This document shows, piece after piece, positions 3,178 to 22,509 of a DNA stretch of 32,808 bases. The stretch is from a virus, in the IMG/VR virus record IMGVR_UViG_3300032180_000029, positions 1 to 32,808 of that record; one strand, given 5' to 3'. The notes below the pieces were generated by a model that worked only from the letters and a program-made list of their open reading frames with translations, had not been told where the DNA came from and made no database searches. The translations under genes were made by a program, and so were the position numbers. Numbering within the stretch: position 1 is the stretch's first letter; the number at the start of each line of letters is the position of its first letter.

Positions 3178-3438
3178 ATGAGTGCGCCTAAGTTTCCTTG
3201 GGAAAAACAATCTTGGCTGACGTACTCGGCGCTGGTGGGACCACTACGTGTGGAGGTCCGAAAAGCACCTGGTGGCGGCTGGCGGGTAGGTGAGATCTTT
3301 GGGTGTCATCACCACACCGCCTCTCGAAGGGTACACAAGTTTTTAGAGGATGCGCAGTTCGAAGCCGAACTAACAGCAATTCGCCTGCTCACAGAGGCAA
3401 GTCGGGCAATACATGTATTGGAGTCGCAAAGTGCATGA
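3178..3438 (+). CDS. Hypothetical protein, 86 aa
   Basis: A small ORF separated from the annealing gene by 29 bases. No good ribosome binding site is visible before ATG 3178, which lowers confidence. The protein has an aromatic N-terminus, a GGGWRVGEIFGCHHH segment and a helical C-terminus. I recognise no domain. It lies between the recombination module and the pentapeptide-repeat gene, all on the + strand. Confidence 0.5.
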   Translation: MSAPKFPWEKQSWLTYSALVGPLRVEVRKAPGGGWRVGEIFGCHHHTASRRVHKFLEDAQFEAELTAIRLLTEASRAIHVLESQSA

Positions 3439-3453
3439 ACCGGATAGGCGTAG

Positions 3454-3729
3454 ATGGATCGTCAGCTGACGGTGCGCGAGCTCATTGCGTTTCTCGAGAC
3501 GTGCCCTGGTGGCGCACTGGTGTTCGCAGATGCCTGCCGCGTCGACGGAGTAGAACTGACGGGTGATCCGCCAAACGTGCGACTACTTATTAATAAGTGC
3601 GCATGTCGATTCCCGCATACCGGCGGCACGATTCGACAGACTGATCCCAACTGCCCGCAGCACGGCACAAAGGAGACGCCATATGATCGAAATCAAACGT
3701 TGGGACACGAGCGCCGTCATCTACCGTAG
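3454..3729 (+). CDS. Hypothetical protein, 91 aa
   Basis: The N-terminal half (TVRELIAFLETCPGGALVF, then a strand containing VDGVEL) looks like a folded alpha/beta unit. The C-terminal third is Cys/His/Pro-containing and looks less ordered. The last 47 bases overlap the next gene, so the extreme C-terminus may be incidental. Only a weak purine stretch precedes ATG 3454. The family is not recognised. Confidence 0.5.
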   Translation: MDRQLTVRELIAFLETCPGGALVFADACRVDGVELTGDPPNVRLLINKCACRFPHTGGTIRQTDPNCPQHGTKETPYDRNQTLGHERRHLP

Positions 3730-16779: not shown

Positions 16780-17351
16780 CGCGCCCCCAAGGACTGACGT
16801 TCAGCTCGCAGCTTCTGCAGCTCGACGTCCTGGAGATCCTGAGCTGTCGGTGCGGGCTTGACGACGTCCGGGATCGTGGTCGATGGCTTCGGGGGCGCAG
16901 GCTTTGGCCGTCGCCACTGATAAAACTCGACGGTCCCGCGCCACGTCCCGAACTCATCATTGACCATCGGCGAAATCGATTTCACGACAACCGCAGTCAC
17001 GCCCAACGCCTTGAGCTCGGGGTGGTCGATTCCCATCGCGCTACTTGTGAGGGTGCCGCCCTGCGAGAATACGGGTTTCTTCAGCAGAACCTTGCGGACC
17101 TCGCGGAAGATGGCGAAGTCCGATTGCTTCCAGATCCACACTTCGAACTTTGCGGCCACGATCTCATCGCCCGTGGGCAGCAGCGTCGCCCAAGAGAGGA
17201 AGTTGCCCTTTTGTATCTGCCAGCCGAACACCTTTGTCGCATCGACGAGCAGCCAGCGCCCGGGCATCGTCTGGCCCGCCAGAGAGATCGTATCGACCTG
17301 CGGAAAGGCGGTGACTGTCGGGTTCGGGGCAACCGTATCGCTGAGAGGCAT
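16776..17351 (-). CDS. Tail/baseplate protein following the tape measure
   Basis: 191 residues. ATG 17351 shares one base with the tape measure stop. It is a beta-rich protein (PGRWLLVDATKVFGWQIQ, AAKFEVWIWKQ, WRGTVEFYQW) with a Pro-rich linker and a charged C-terminal helix. In Mu-like order this slot holds the DNA-circulation or baseplate-hub proteins, while other myoviruses have LysM-type tail initiators here. I recognise no LysM motif, so only a general tail-initiator role is inferred. Confidence 0.55.
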   Translation of the reverse strand: MPLSDTVAPNPTVTAFPQVDTISLAGQTMPGRWLLVDATKVFGWQIQKGNFLSWATLLPTGDEIVAAKFEVWIWKQSDFAIFREVRKVLLKKPVFSQGGTLTSSAMGIDHPELKALGVTAVVVKSISPMVNDEFGTWRGTVEFYQWRRPKPAPPKPSTTIPDVVKPAPTAQDLQDVELQKLRAERQSLGAR

Positions 17352-19438
17352 TACCCACCCGCCGCCGTTTGGGTTGGGATGCCGGCGCCGACAAGGGCTT
17401 CCTCGATCGCCTTGGTGAGCTGCGCGAGAAAGTCTGGGGAGCTGAGAGCCTTGGCCGTCTCCGCGCCTTTGCCGCCATCGGGGACTTGGATCTGGACGTT
17501 CAGAGTGATGGGGCCGCCGCCTCGGCCAGCCGTAGCCCCAGCCGCGCCAGGAGGCGCGCTCGGGGCCATCTCATTGACCGACTGCTGCGCGCCCCCCTGC
17601 TTCGCCTCGACGCCCTTGCCGTAGCCTTCGACCGTCTGCTTTCCGTAGCCCTCGAATATTTTGGATGGAGAGTGAATGCCGAGGAGATTCTTGAACGTCG
17701 TTTTGATGCTGTCGGCGACGCCGCCAATGGCCGCCTTTAGCGCATTCCATGCGTTGCGGATCCCCTCGGTGATCCCTTCGATCAATTGCTTGCCGAGCTC
17801 CGCAGCAGCGGTCCGCATCCTGTCACCGAAGCCCTCCACCGTCGCTTGCAAGTCCGTGAAGAACCCGACCACCTTGCCGATCGCGGCGAAGGCGGCGACG
17901 AAGCCGGCGACGACGATCGTTGCCCCGGCCAGCGCAACCCCGACTGCGCCGATCGCCACTTTTACCGCGGTGATGGCATCGTTGACCGAGATGAGCCCGA
18001 AGAGCTTGGCCTTCGTGTCGAGGATGCCGCGGCGCCATTTGATGAAGGCGATGTCCGCCTGATAGGTCCAGATGATGAGCTGTTTGATCGCCTTTTTCGC
18101 GAAGTCCGCGCCGCTCGCGGCTCCTCCCACAAGATCGTTTCCAAGGTCCGTGACGATGTCCTTCAGAGCCGCACCCGCGACGGTGTTGTCCGTGAAAAGA
18201 TCAGTAAGCGAGGTGAAGGCCCGCAGAAGCGGCTCGAGGTTGACGCCCGTCGTGAGCGCGGCAAGCGTCTCGTGAAACTTGAGCTTGATCACGTCCCAAT
18301 CGAGCATCTTGCGAAGGTTGATCGAGGCGAAGCGCGTCTCGATAGCCGTCCGAATCGCCTTCGCCCCTTGATTGACGTCCGTCCAGCCCGCGAGCAGCTG
18401 AAATCGAGCGTCGTTTAGTCCAATCTTGAGTTGCTTCGAAAGGTTGCCGGCGACGTCCTCGAAAGTGATACCCGTGCCCTGGAGCTCGAAGCGTCCGAGG
18501 CCCATGCGGCCCCACGTTTTGCTCCGCTCGATGATCTCTTGGATCTTCGAGCCTGCGGTCTTGCCCATCGCCTCCGAGGCCTGAGCGACAGCGTTGAACG
18601 TGTCGACGATGCCCTGCCCGCCGATCCGAGTGCCGAGCATCGAGCGAGTCATCGTGAGCGCAAGCTCATTGAGCTCGGCCTTCGGGGTCGCGAGCTTCTG
18701 AGCGAGGGCGTCCACCTGGTGACCGAGGGCGTTCGCGTTGGAAGCGCTGCCGCCGGCCGCCTCGCGCATAAGTCCCATCGTCCGAGCCGCGTTTGCCCCC
18801 TCGACCACGAAGCGCGCGAAGGCGATCGTTCCCGCAACGACCGCCGCCGTCAGGCCAATCACTGCCGCTGCAGCAGCAGCTACAGCAGCCACCATCAGGG
18901 TTGCACCGACGGCGAGAGCTCCCTCGGCTGTCGTCATACCTCCCAGGACGCCTTTGAGTCCCTCTAGCTTCTCGCGGAGCTCCGAGACGGGGCCCCCGAC
19001 CTTACGGACCGCATCGGCAGTCGCCTTCGACGACTCGGTGTGCTTGAGCAATGCGTCCGCCGCACGCTTAACGGCATCGCGCTCCTTTTGGGCCTGCTCG
19101 GCGAGCTTAGACTTCGCTGCCTTCTCCTTCTCGGCGCGTGCGTCACGTTGCTGCTTCGTCAAATGCTCGTAGGTCGTGCCTTGCTTGACGAGCTGCAGGT
19201 TCGCGCGCGACATCGCGTCTCGCTCGGCATCTACCTTTGCCTTGAGCTGCGACCGAGCCTCTTTGACGTCATCACTTGCGCCTCGAAGTGAACGAAGAGC
19301 CGAGCCGTAATTCTTGACTGCCTCTTGGGAGGCGAAGATCTTGGCGCGCAGCGCCTCAAGGTCGGACGCCGCCTCTTTTGCGCCCGGCGCTTCGGTCGGG
19401 ATGGCAATCGCGAAACTTGCAGTTTTCTCGGTCGCCAT
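17351..19438 (-). CDS. Tail tape measure protein
   Basis: 695 residues. The N-terminal third is coiled-coil rich (Lys/Glu/Ala heptads, about residues 50-150). Strongly hydrophobic Ala/Val stretches follow near 175-210 and again near 485-520. The segment GIHSPSKIFEGYG is the hallmark H-S-P-S motif near the C-terminus of many tape measures. It sets tail length and is ejected into the host envelope; by the usual rule of about 1.5 angstrom per residue, a tail near 100 nm is expected. It begins 1 base after the frameshifted chaperone's stop. Confidence 0.9.
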   Translation of the reverse strand: MATEKTASFAIAIPTEAPGAKEAASDLEALRAKIFASQEAVKNYGSALRSLRGASDDVKEARSQLKAKVDAERDAMSRANLQLVKQGTTYEHLTKQQRDARAEKEKAAKSKLAEQAQKERDAVKRAADALLKHTESSKATADAVRKVGGPVSELREKLEGLKGVLGGMTTAEGALAVGATLMVAAVAAAAAAVIGLTAAVVAGTIAFARFVVEGANAARTMGLMREAAGGSASNANALGHQVDALAQKLATPKAELNELALTMTRSMLGTRIGGQGIVDTFNAVAQASEAMGKTAGSKIQEIIERSKTWGRMGLGRFELQGTGITFEDVAGNLSKQLKIGLNDARFQLLAGWTDVNQGAKAIRTAIETRFASINLRKMLDWDVIKLKFHETLAALTTGVNLEPLLRAFTSLTDLFTDNTVAGAALKDIVTDLGNDLVGGAASGADFAKKAIKQLIIWTYQADIAFIKWRRGILDTKAKLFGLISVNDAITAVKVAIGAVGVALAGATIVVAGFVAAFAAIGKVVGFFTDLQATVEGFGDRMRTAAAELGKQLIEGITEGIRNAWNALKAAIGGVADSIKTTFKNLLGIHSPSKIFEGYGKQTVEGYGKGVEAKQGGAQQSVNEMAPSAPPGAAGATAGRGGGPITLNVQIQVPDGGKGAETAKALSSPDFLAQLTKAIEEALVGAGIPTQTAAGG

Positions 19439-19439
19439 T

Positions 19440-19613
19440 TCACTTCCCTACGAGCGCCTTTGCGATGATCCCGATGTACTTTATCGCGTCTCCCAGAAGA
19501 AGAGCACCAACGAACGCCTTGTCATCTTCGGGGCCCTCGGGGGAGCGGTACGCCATGAGGCACTCCCCTACGAGCCAATGATTGTGCATCGCCTGCGCGC
19601 GCAGGCTGGCTAT
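19440..19613 (-). CDS. -1 frameshift extension of the tail assembly chaperone (gpGT-type)
   Basis: Read in the -1 frame after the slippery heptamer, 57 sense codons (ATA first) run without a stop to TGA at 19442-19440, ending 1 base before the tape measure ATG. The added domain contains LVGECLMAYRSPEG, DDKAFVGALLLGD and a helical end. The fusion of 138 + 57 = 195 residues matches the G/GT arrangement known from lambda and most long-tailed phages, where a minor frameshift product chaperones the tape measure. An internal ATG at 19589 lacks an obvious ribosome site, so frameshifting is the more likely route. Confidence 0.8.
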   Translation of the reverse strand: MASLRAQAMHNHWLVGECLMAYRSPEGPEDDKAFVGALLLGDAIKYIGIIAKALVGK

Positions 19614-19619
19614 TTTCCC
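19591..19619 (-). promoter_or_regulatory. Programmed -1 ribosomal frameshift signal
   Basis: On the - strand, G GGA AAA (19619-19613) is in the correct phase (GCG GGA AAA TAG). The stop follows immediately, and a 6-base spacer leads to the perfect palindrome GCCTGCGCGCGCAGGC (19606-19591), able to form a GC-only hairpin with a 6-bp stem and 4-base loop. Slippery X XXY YYZ heptamer, short spacer and stem-loop are the standard parts of -1 frameshift sites. Confidence 0.85.
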
Positions 19620-20026
19620 GCCTTCGCCTCCCCTTTGGCTGCGGACATCTCTTGGAGAACTCCCGCGCAGATCCAGGCCACTTGCACGTGCTCACGAAAG
19701 AGACGTTGCGCGGTCTCTCGGTCGGGCACGATGACGGAGGGCAGGACGAACTGGAAAACGTCCTCCTCGGTCACCGTTCCGGCAGAGCCCTTCGCGTTGA
19801 AGGCCTTGTGCTTGATGAACTCCGCGAGCCGTAGGACGAAGTTACCGAGCTCGTTCGATACGATATCGAACTTGACGCCGCGCGCTCCGATCTCCTCGGT
19901 GTACTTCGCTTCGAGCTCGAGCTCTTCGAGGCGACGGAGCTTTGCTTTTGCTTCGCGTGCGGCTTGCCTCTTTGCCTTGTCTTCCTCGAGCCGAGCGAGC
20001 TTCGCGTCGAGGTCTTCGTCGGTCAT
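19610..20026 (-). CDS. Tail assembly chaperone (gpG-like, zero-frame product)
   Basis: 138 residues from ATG 20026 (ATGA). The N-terminal 45 residues are a charged coiled coil; the rest is helical with FVLRLAEFIKHKAF and VWICAGVLQEM-like helices. It lies between tube and tape measure genes, the invariant slot of the tail chaperone in long-tailed phages. It ends in the slippery site G GGA AAA directly before TAG, so a fraction of ribosomes should make the longer form. Sequence similarity to known gpG proteins is not evident by eye; the assignment comes from position, size and frameshift. Confidence 0.8.
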   Translation of the reverse strand: MTDEDLDAKLARLEEDKAKRQAAREAKAKLRRLEELELEAKYTEEIGARGVKFDIVSNELGNFVLRLAEFIKHKAFNAKGSAGTVTEEDVFQFVLPSVIVPDRETAQRLFREHVQVAWICAGVLQEMSAAKGEAKAGK

Positions 20027-20517
20027 GTCCGCTCCGCGGGTAACTTCAGTTGCGCCGAGACCTTTGGCTTGCCGCTCCCGCTCGTGAACGCGAAAACGAG
20101 GCGCACCCATCGATAGGTGCACGCGCGCTCGGCGAGGATCAGCGCGTTCGCTCCTGAGGACACAGCCTTCGATGTCGCCTGGGCGCCCGCACCAACATCC
20201 CAGAAGCTCAGCGTTTGCCAATTGGATGCGTCGCCCAAGTCGGTACCAAGGACCGATGCTCCTCCGCCCTCCGAGCTACTACGATGCGAGCAGGCTTGAA
20301 GGGTGAGCGTTCCGGCGAGGGTAGAGGCGGCGAGCGTAGAAAACTCAATGCTGAACGCATCGCAATCGCCCACGAATACCGGAACGCTCGTGAACGCCGC
20401 GGACGTGGTGACTGTTGCCCCGTCGAAGGGGTTGTTCGGGTTGGCTCCCGTCAGGTTACCGTTCACGTCGGCGACCGCGGGAAATAGAGTGTTGGCCGTG
20501 CGGAGCGTCTTGCTCAT
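20023..20517 (-). CDS. Beta-rich tail protein, 164 aa
   Basis: Starts at ATG 20517 and ends with a TGA overlapping the chaperone start. Gly/Ser/Thr-rich strands (FSIEFSTLAASTLAGTLTL, NWQTLSFWDV, YRWVRLVFAF) suggest a beta-sandwich of the kind that decorates phage tails or capsids. It sits between tube and chaperone, where most myoviruses have no extra gene. A tail decoration protein is plausible, but no family was recognised. Confidence 0.55.
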   Translation of the reverse strand: MSKTLRTANTLFPAVADVNGNLTGANPNNPFDGATVTTSAAFTSVPVFVGDCDAFSIEFSTLAASTLAGTLTLQACSHRSSSEGGGASVLGTDLGDASNWQTLSFWDVGAGAQATSKAVSSGANALILAERACTYRWVRLVFAFTSGSGKPKVSAQLKLPAERT

Positions 20518-20523
20518 GCGGCC

Positions 20524-21036
20524 TCAGAGAAGAGATCGGATCTGGCTCCAGAGCTGCAGCGGCACGCCGTTGGACGTCTTGAAGACCGCGATCGCTTTGC
20601 AGGTGAGCACTGTCACGAGATAGGGCCCCCCGTCCTCGGAGAACTCCTGATCTTCCTCGACTTCCTCGATCACGCATCCGCCGATGACGGTCGAGGAAGG
20701 GAGCGAGATCGTCCCGGGCTCGTTCAGGGTGAGCAGATAGTCGAAGGACGCGTCACCGTAGGAGCCGAGCCCGAGGGCCGTCAGCTCCGTCGCGAGGCCT
20801 TGCTCCCACGAGTCGCGAGAGAGCGTGAAGGAGACGGACTCGACGCGGTAAACGCCCGACGTAATTCCAAGCGGCGTGCCATCTTGTGCAGCCGACGGGA
20901 CGTAGATTCGCTTGCGAGATTCCTTGTAATTGACCTTCGTGATCCCCTTGTACGGGAACCCGTTGAAAAAGTGCGCACACGACGTCCACGAGTACGGAAC
21001 GTTGTTGACGCGGGTGACGAGGTTCGGATCGGGCAT
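20524..21036 (-). CDS. Tail tube protein
   Basis: 170 residues, directly after the sheath gene, 3 bases from its stop. It is beta-rich with a central ESVSFTLSRDSWEQGLATEL segment and late strands (YLVTVLTCKAIAV) consistent with the tube/Hcp-like fold that polymerises inside the sheath. The start ATG 21036 is the first available. The call rests on synteny (sheath, tube, chaperone, tape measure) and size. Confidence 0.75.
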   Translation of the reverse strand: MPDPNLVTRVNNVPYSWTSCAHFFNGFPYKGITKVNYKESRKRIYVPSAAQDGTPLGITSGVYRVESVSFTLSRDSWEQGLATELTALGLGSYGDASFDYLLTLNEPGTISLPSSTVIGGCVIEEVEEDQEFSEDGGPYLVTVLTCKAIAVFKTSNGVPLQLWSQIRSLL

Positions 21037-21039
21037 GGA

Positions 21040-22509
21040 TCACGCTGCGATCTGGAGGGTCTTCGAAAACTCCGAAGTGACGACATAGCCCTTGATATAG
21101 GCCTTGGCGACGATGCTCACGAGCGCGTGCACCGTGGCGGGAATCACCGATAGGTCGTCGGTGCGAGATAGCGAGAAGAGCGATTGCGACACCTGCCCCT
21201 TGAGAGCTTGCTGGAGCTGTCCGTTGACGAGAGCCTCGATCGCACTCGCGTCACTTTCGAGGATGGTCACCGCTCCGGTGTTAGGGTCCTTCTTCGGATT
21301 CTTCGAAACACCCCGCGAGAGCTGTTTGGTGAGCTGCGCCCACGCGATCGTGCACGCGCGATTCATCACGCGAATGTGCTGCAAATACACGAAGTCGCCG
21401 CCCGTCGCCTGAATCGTGTTGGCGTTCGTGACGTATGCGCCGTCTGGCCCTCCCGCGGCAAAGGTGCGGAGCGTCGTAACGCGGAGCCCGTCGAGGTTAG
21501 GGAAAAGGTTCTCGTCGTGGTCTAGGGGATTACCTGCCGCGTCGAAAACCCGGAATCCGGGGCACGGGCCATCCGCGACATACGCCGGGTCGCGTCCGAT
21601 TGGGATCGACATGGCGCGCGCGGCGAGTGCAAGCGATGTCGGGCGCTTGAGGTTCAGGCCAGTGATGGGGCTCGGCAGGTGACCCCCATCGGCGCCCACG
21701 CACATGCGGATGCTCGTCTGGCCTGTCACGAGCGTTGTCACCGCCGTCGTGTAGGCAGCTTCGGTCTCGGCTGTCGGCTCGGGTTCGTTCTTGAATCGCG
21801 TGTTGTGCAGGGCAAACTTGAACTGCCCTTGCCCCTCGATCCCGGCGAGAAAGGTGTCCACGACCCCCACGGTGTTCGTGTCGAAGACGCCGTCGATGAG
21901 CACGCCTTCCCAAGCAATCCGCGTATTGCCTAGAGCCGTCAGCGACGCGCCGAGGTCCGCATTGGTCGAAAGCGCACGCTCAGTGAAGACGCTCCAGCTA
22001 TCCCCCGCGATGAGCGTCCCGGCGCTGAGGGCGAAGGAAACGCCCGAGTTCGGAATCGTGAGCGTATTGAGCGTCCCAAGCGCCTGCGTCCCCGAGAACG
22101 TCGAGCCATCGAGAGCGTACTGGTAGGTGACGCCCGTAACACCGATCGTTCCTCCCGCGATGATCTTGACAACCACCTGGTAATGCTCGAGAGGCGCGGT
22201 CGCGCCCGCCGTCGGAACGCTCGTTCCGGTAACGTTGCTCGTGATCGTCCCATACGTGGCTGCCTGGCTCTGAACGGAACGCAGAAGGACCACGGGCTGA
22301 TTCGCCGTGTCGATCACGTAGGCTCCATACTCGACGAGGGGCCCGTATCCGAACGTCGAAAGGGCCGTGTCGCTCCGCGAATAGGACGCCGGCAGGTTCT
22401 GCGAGCCCGTCTGGCTTCCCGCGATAATCGCGAGCACGCCAGCTACGGATGCGGGTGCCGAGCCGACGTTCGTCTGAACCTTGTTAATGGTGACGCTGGG
22501 CAAAGGCAT
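21040..22509 (-). CDS. Contractile tail sheath protein with inserted beta domain
   Basis: 489 residues, ATG 22509. The N-terminus (PSVTINKVQTNVGSAPASV, then FGYGPLVEYGAYVID) and the C-terminus (a helix-rich part with IEALVNGQLQQAL, then strands around HALVSIVAKAYIKGYVV) fit phage sheath proteins, whose termini interlock between rings. Residues about 85-177 form an extra beta unit with VTYQYALDGSTFSG and LSAGTLIAGDSW, also found in the head connector of this phage. Sheath contraction drives the tube through the envelope. Neighbours are a terminator-like protein upstream and the tube downstream. Confidence 0.85.
   Translation of the reverse strand: MPLPSVTINKVQTNVGSAPASVAGVLAIIAGSQTGSQNLPASYSRSDTALSTFGYGPLVEYGAYVIDTANQPVVLLRSVQSQAATYGTITSNVTGTSVPTAGATAPLEHYQVVVKIIAGGTIGVTGVTYQYALDGSTFSGTQALGTLNTLTIPNSGVSFALSAGTLIAGDSWSVFTERALSTNADLGASLTALGNTRIAWEGVLIDGVFDTNTVGVVDTFLAGIEGQGQFKFALHNTRFKNEPEPTAETEAAYTTAVTTLVTGQTSIRMCVGADGGHLPSPITGLNLKRPTSLALAARAMSIPIGRDPAYVADGPCPGFRVFDAAGNPLDHDENLFPNLDGLRVTTLRTFAAGGPDGAYVTNANTIQATGGDFVYLQHIRVMNRACTIAWAQLTKQLSRGVSKNPKKDPNTGAVTILESDASAIEALVNGQLQQALKGQVSQSLFSLSRTDDLSVIPATVHALVSIVAKAYIKGYVVTSEFSKTLQIAA

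Follow-up and report, generated by a model that had tools for sequence, protein, structure and literature searches.

A two-form tail assembly chaperone, very probably produced by programmed -1 frameshifting, in an uncultured contractile-tailed phage

Introduction

Does the gene that lies just upstream of the tape measure gene in an uncultured virus make one protein, or two? The window, by which we mean the whole stretch of DNA that was analysed, corresponds to a linear virus record in IMG/VR that is 32,808 bases long. One of its genes stops at TAG, and a second open frame overlaps that end and leads up to the tape measure gene. An initial annotation had proposed that a programmed -1 frameshift joins the two and produces a two-form tail assembly chaperone. 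All the elements named in support of this proposal are present, relatives conserve the extension and in most -1 cases have an in-phase heptamer, and from the sequence we consider it very probable that the gene gives rise to two forms through a programmed -1 ribosomal frameshift of the lambda type.

Tail module and extension frame

The tail genes are all on the minus strand of the window, as are the features of the chaperone gene located below, and they follow the order sheath, tube, an unmatched 164-residue gene, the chaperone gene, the extension and the tape measure gene. The tail sheath (DUF2586, 489 residues, 21040..22509) matches PF10758 with E 1.2e-23 and phrog_907 with E 1.6e-19; the tail tube protein (170 residues, 20524..21036) matches a profile of relatives' tube proteins with E 2e-7; and the tape measure protein (695 residues, 17351..19438) matches phrog_58 with E 2.3e-17. 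The phage is contractile-tailed and uncultured, with a tail module of the myovirus type.

The short, gpG-like form of the chaperone has 138 residues (19610..20026) and occupies the slot between the tail tube and tape measure genes, as expected of the gpG/gpGT kind, with one extra gene intervening. This intervening gene (20023-20517) has no match in the searched libraries or in related loci. Its stop codon overlaps the start of the chaperone gene (ATGA).

The -1 extension, a T-like domain of 57 codons followed by TGA, lies at 19440..19613, with the stop codon at 19442-19440. A single base (19439) separates this stop from the tape measure ATG at 19438, so the 57-codon open frame ending one base before the tape measure gene was correctly described. 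As in gpG/gpGT genes, the -1 frame is open all the way from the slip site to the start of the tape measure gene, and the predicted fused product has 195 residues.

The open frame by itself says little: in this GC-rich stretch, 14% of dinucleotide shuffles also leave 57 codons open. It could accordingly be asked whether frame, heptamer and palindrome are mere coincidence, with the chaperone simply stopping at TAG. Codon usage speaks against chance, since the extension frame is gene-like: its codon score is 0.238, compared with 0.225 +/- 0.19 for genes and -0.17 +/- 0.22 for off-frames, while the two remaining frames of this stretch have scores of -0.46 and -0.34.

Signals at the predicted slip site

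The chaperone gene runs from ATG to GCG GGA AAA TAG, and this ending, with its in-phase G_GGA_AAA, agrees base for base with the one first described. The slippery heptamer GGGAAAA (19613..19619) takes its first G from the third base of GCG and abuts the TAG; an in-phase heptamer close to where the short form ends is another feature of the gpG/gpGT kind. Throughout the window, in-phase X_XXY_YYZ heptamers with AAA or TTT as YYY number 7 in 6902 codons, which gives a probability of about 0.001 for finding one in the last slot, or about 0.01 within the last ten codons; this too argues against coincidence.

After the heptamer comes a 6-nt spacer, TAGCCA (19607..19612), that includes the zero-frame stop. 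It is followed by the perfect 16-base, GC-rich palindrome GCCTGCGCGCGCAGGC (19591..19606), again just where it had been placed, 6 nt 3' of the heptamer. The palindrome can form a hairpin with a 6-bp stem and a GCGC loop, and it is the longest perfect palindrome in the 32.8-kb window, where tight GC-rich 6-bp hairpins are found at only 17 positions. The folding energy downstream of the heptamer is only moderately unusual (z -1.33; 8.5th percentile), and the hairpin is a likely frameshift stimulator. Perfect palindromes of 14 bp also exist elsewhere in the window (3407-3420, 3585-3598 and 1781-1794), two of them AT-rich and approximately 165 bp apart; these are possible operators or terminators.

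Upstream, 7 nt 5' of the heptamer, there is a Shine-Dalgarno (SD)-like element, GGGGAGG (19627..19633), whose duplex with the anti-SD sequence has an energy of -10.5 kcal/mol, in the 0.7th percentile of gene-internal positions. The combination of GGGGAGG, heptamer and hairpin 6 nt on resembles the three-part dnaX cassette. No consistent presence of an SD-like stimulator is seen in relatives (mean percentile 0.21 for -1 loci and 0.18 for +1 loci), and because of this inconsistency we treat the element as a possible stimulator.

Relatives and conservation of the extension

When the chaperone itself was used as the query, zero relatives were found in public phages or IMG/VR, and therefore the sheath was used as bait. 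A sheath search found Meiothermus phage MMP7, Thermus phage Riverbug and Myxococcus phage Mx4. In IMG/VR, the window's tape measure or sheath alone as the query found nothing, but an alignment of the MMP7, Riverbug and Mx4 sheaths retrieved 40 loci, and a wider alignment 59. A search of genome contigs gave no confirmed match.

The three named phages share the order sheath, tube, chaperone, extension and tape measure. Among the first-set loci that are complete from sheath to tape measure, nearly all have sheath, tube, chaperone, an overlapping open frame and tape measure in this order, the exceptions being L036 and L039. The extension profile has no match in these two loci, and a candidate -1 site in L039 was discarded; several distant sheath relatives (e.g. 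L054-L056) likewise lack an extension match.

To compare the extension with that of the window, a profile was built from relatives only, with the window left out, and the six frames of the window were all searched with it. One frame only is matched, at 19691-19443, with E 1.9e-7 when all relatives are used and E 6.8e-8 when only the -1 relatives are used; the next best values are 0.2 and 0.06. With the window included, the profile found the extension in further loci outside its building set. The shared motif is roughly AAxxLxAYxRGE..PEA.AGALL.A..L. Neither the short form nor the extension has a match in Pfam, PHROGs or NCBIfam, and the extension is a domain family for which these libraries have no model. 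Between close relatives in the +1 branch described below, differences in the extension are distributed 63/15/164 over codon positions 1/2/3, a third-position pattern that indicates protein-level constraint. The extension is thus conserved as a protein, as it is in the gpG/gpGT kind, and the check first suggested, whether relatives conserve heptamer and extension, has a positive outcome: the profile picks this frame, and 16 -1 relatives carry a heptamer. In sequence, the chaperone body of the window resembles those of the relatives only weakly, with E 0.06 in hmmsearch and E 0.0043 at a probability of 8% in hhalign.

Because a profile made from relatives alone matches this particular frame, and with the same architecture present in dozens of relatives, coincidence is in practice refuted and we regard it as extremely improbable. 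A frameshifted, two-form chaperone accounts for the same observations.

A different concern is that the extension could be a small gene of its own, started at an internal ATG and never fused to the chaperone. Ordinary gene calling had been thought to miss the extension for want of a good start. That was too strong: there are in-frame ATGs at 19589 (49 residues) and at 19556 (38 residues), and the statement does not strictly hold because the second of these is preceded by GGGGAG about 7 nt upstream. The public annotations of MMP7, Riverbug and Mx4 also present the equivalent stretch as a hypothetical protein in its own right. However, relatives conserve neither of the two ATGs as a start, and the one at 19556 falls within the conserved motif L-x-A-Y. 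In four relatives (L011, L016, L018 and L038), ATG, GTG and TTG are all absent from the extension, and in three more (L019, L026 and L031) a possible start codon occurs only in the last 18 residues; with no start codon to use in several relatives, separate initiation fails to explain the extension. A separate gene would also leave the heptamer unexplained, and the frame of the extension continues upstream past it without a stop codon. We consider a separate gene very unlikely, and return to the reading in which the extension is reached by a -1 shift from the chaperone gene.

Slip sites in the -1 relatives

Sixteen other -1 relatives also have an X_XXY_YYZ heptamer in phase where the short form ends. 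A_AAA_AAA, A_AAA_AAG or A_AAA_AAC is found in Mx4, L005, L006, L009, L019, L026, L030, L031, L037 and L038, and also in L045, L046, L047, L049 and L051; in L057, a heptamer of the A_AAA_AAN type is located approximately 57 nt ahead of the short-form stop. The slip site in L053 is GTG GGG GAA, and a GGGGGAA motif has been reported for many actinophages (PMC10885494). Canonical heptamers are missing from four -1 relatives: L015, L033 and L050 have just NNA AAA near the stop, which suggests single-tRNA slippage, and L048 has no recognised site. The -1 relatives carry A-rich heptamers even though, in their sheath and tape measure genes, AAA makes up only 12% of the Lys codons and AAA-AAR pairs number 2 versus 18 for AAG-AAG.

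Mx4 p57 and p58 (L004:9031-9578) are deposited as two hypothetical proteins. Judging from their junction, they look like one gene with a -1 frameshift at A_AAA_AAA.

Such runs raise the question of whether the frame is changed by RNA polymerase rather than by the ribosome. Mx4, L037 and L026 have runs of at least eight A, at which transcriptional slippage is conceivable, and in Thermus dnaX transcriptional slippage takes place at a run of 9 (PMC5009743). The GGGAAAA run of the window is too short for this, though; the runs in L006, L009 and L019 are short as well, and their phase fits a ribosomal heptamer. Polymerase slippage is therefore very unlikely in the window, even less likely than a separate gene, and ribosomal slippage remains our preferred reading.

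A branch with the extension in the +1 frame

A sister clade that includes a Meiothermus and a Thermus phage has the homologous extension in frame +1, which is equivalent to -2. There are 16 such loci, including MMP7 and Riverbug: L002:9304-9778, L003:9853-10318, L007, L008, L010, L011, L013, L016, L018, L021-L024, L027, L028 and L032. These loci are not mutually independent, and hosts are known for MMP7 and Riverbug only. In MMP7 and Riverbug the extension is deposited as a separate gene.

The -1 heptamer is absent from all 16, and each has an in-frame TTT C, with the short-form stop following 4 to 16 codons later. When TTTC is read as one Phe step, the two frames fuse, and the resulting proteins can be aligned through the junction. 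TTT accounts for 31% of the Phe codons in these phages. Several of the loci have GAGGAGG five bases upstream of TTT C, an arrangement reminiscent of prfB. TTT C is the probable slip site in this clade, where +1 and -2 shifts are inseparable by sequence.

We think it likely that the direction of frameshifting has switched within one homologous tail module, between -1 (the window and its myxophage-like relatives) and +1 at TTT C, the change of recoding mechanism perhaps being linked to host tRNA sets. Tail chaperones with -1, -2 and +1 shifts are all known (PMC5009743), and we found no paper on this +1 branch in the open-licence literature. The homologous set permits -1 and +1 recoding to be compared directly; if the switch is real, the set is a natural test case for the reasons behind a change of recoding mechanism in a lineage.

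Structure models

For the short form, AlphaFold2 gives a model (pLDDT 89.3, pTM 0.72) with a long helix at the N-terminus, a beta hairpin and further helices. In a Foldseek search, its top PDB match is 3fgx (RBSTP2171; prob 0.97, TMt 0.68, E 0.19), and the HK97 tail chaperone gp13 (2ob9) and YqbN (3klu) are at ranks 3 and 4; none of these matches is significant by E-value, and they are not fully independent of the relatives because the alignment used for the model contained them. By sequence, the profile of the relatives' chaperones matches 3fgx with E 3.9e-9. For the extension, the model shows three helices (pLDDT 93.8), and Foldseek found no match to it.

Proposed mechanism

We infer slippage and its efficiency, the roles of the hairpin and the SD-like element, and the binding partners as follows. 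Most ribosomes would end at the TAG and release the 138-residue form. A minority would stall at G_GGA_AAA through the downstream hairpin, possibly with a contribution from the upstream SD-like contact, and would move back by one base, with GGA re-paired as GGG and AAA as AAA. These ribosomes would read 57 further codons, and the long form, of 195 residues, would end in a C-terminal domain of three helices. As in lambda gpG/gpGT, the part shared by both forms may coat the tape measure protein, and the rare extension may recruit tube subunits. Genes of that kind are expected to yield both products in a constant ratio, with neither present in the virion and with binding to tape measure and tube.

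Comparison with known systems

The closest parallel is lambda gpG/gpGT, where a single gene immediately 5' of the tape measure gene gives two forms by a -1 slip at a GGGAAA-type heptamer late in the short form, and where the extension stops at the tape measure start; the window has the same layout. The lambda heptamer is GGGAAAG. Unlike in lambda, the slip site of the window abuts the stop codon, the tail is contractile, and the 57-residue extension, known here from sequence, belongs to a family absent from Pfam, PHROGs and NCBIfam. The function of the lambda chaperones has been reviewed (PMC5009743).

P2 E/E+E' and Mu (-2) share the contractile tail, the gene slot and the two-form chaperone. 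No match to a P2 or Mu family was found for the chaperone or extension of the window, and the slip site differs from that of Mu. Mx4 p57-p58 has the same gene order, an in-phase heptamer and a -1 extension up to the tape measure gene; it differs from the window in the heptamer itself and in its deposition as two proteins. In MMP7 and Riverbug, the chaperone slot likewise contains the homologous extension motif, but in the +1 (or -2) frame, with the probable TTT C site in place of a -1 heptamer.

In E. coli dnaX, an SD-like element precedes the slippery heptamer AAAAAAG, and a hairpin follows about 6 nt downstream. The window has the same three parts at similar spacing, but its heptamer is GGGAAAA, its SD-like part is not conserved in relatives, and its shift would lengthen the product, whereas that of dnaX shortens it.

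These comparisons correct the annotation of a tail module whose parts are deposited as separate 'hypothetical proteins' even in the isolated phages Mx4, MMP7 and Riverbug, and they define the extension domain family. For recoding biology in general, an established rule is confirmed rather than broken: the two-form chaperone is new to this phage, and its kind is already known from lambda gpG/gpGT.
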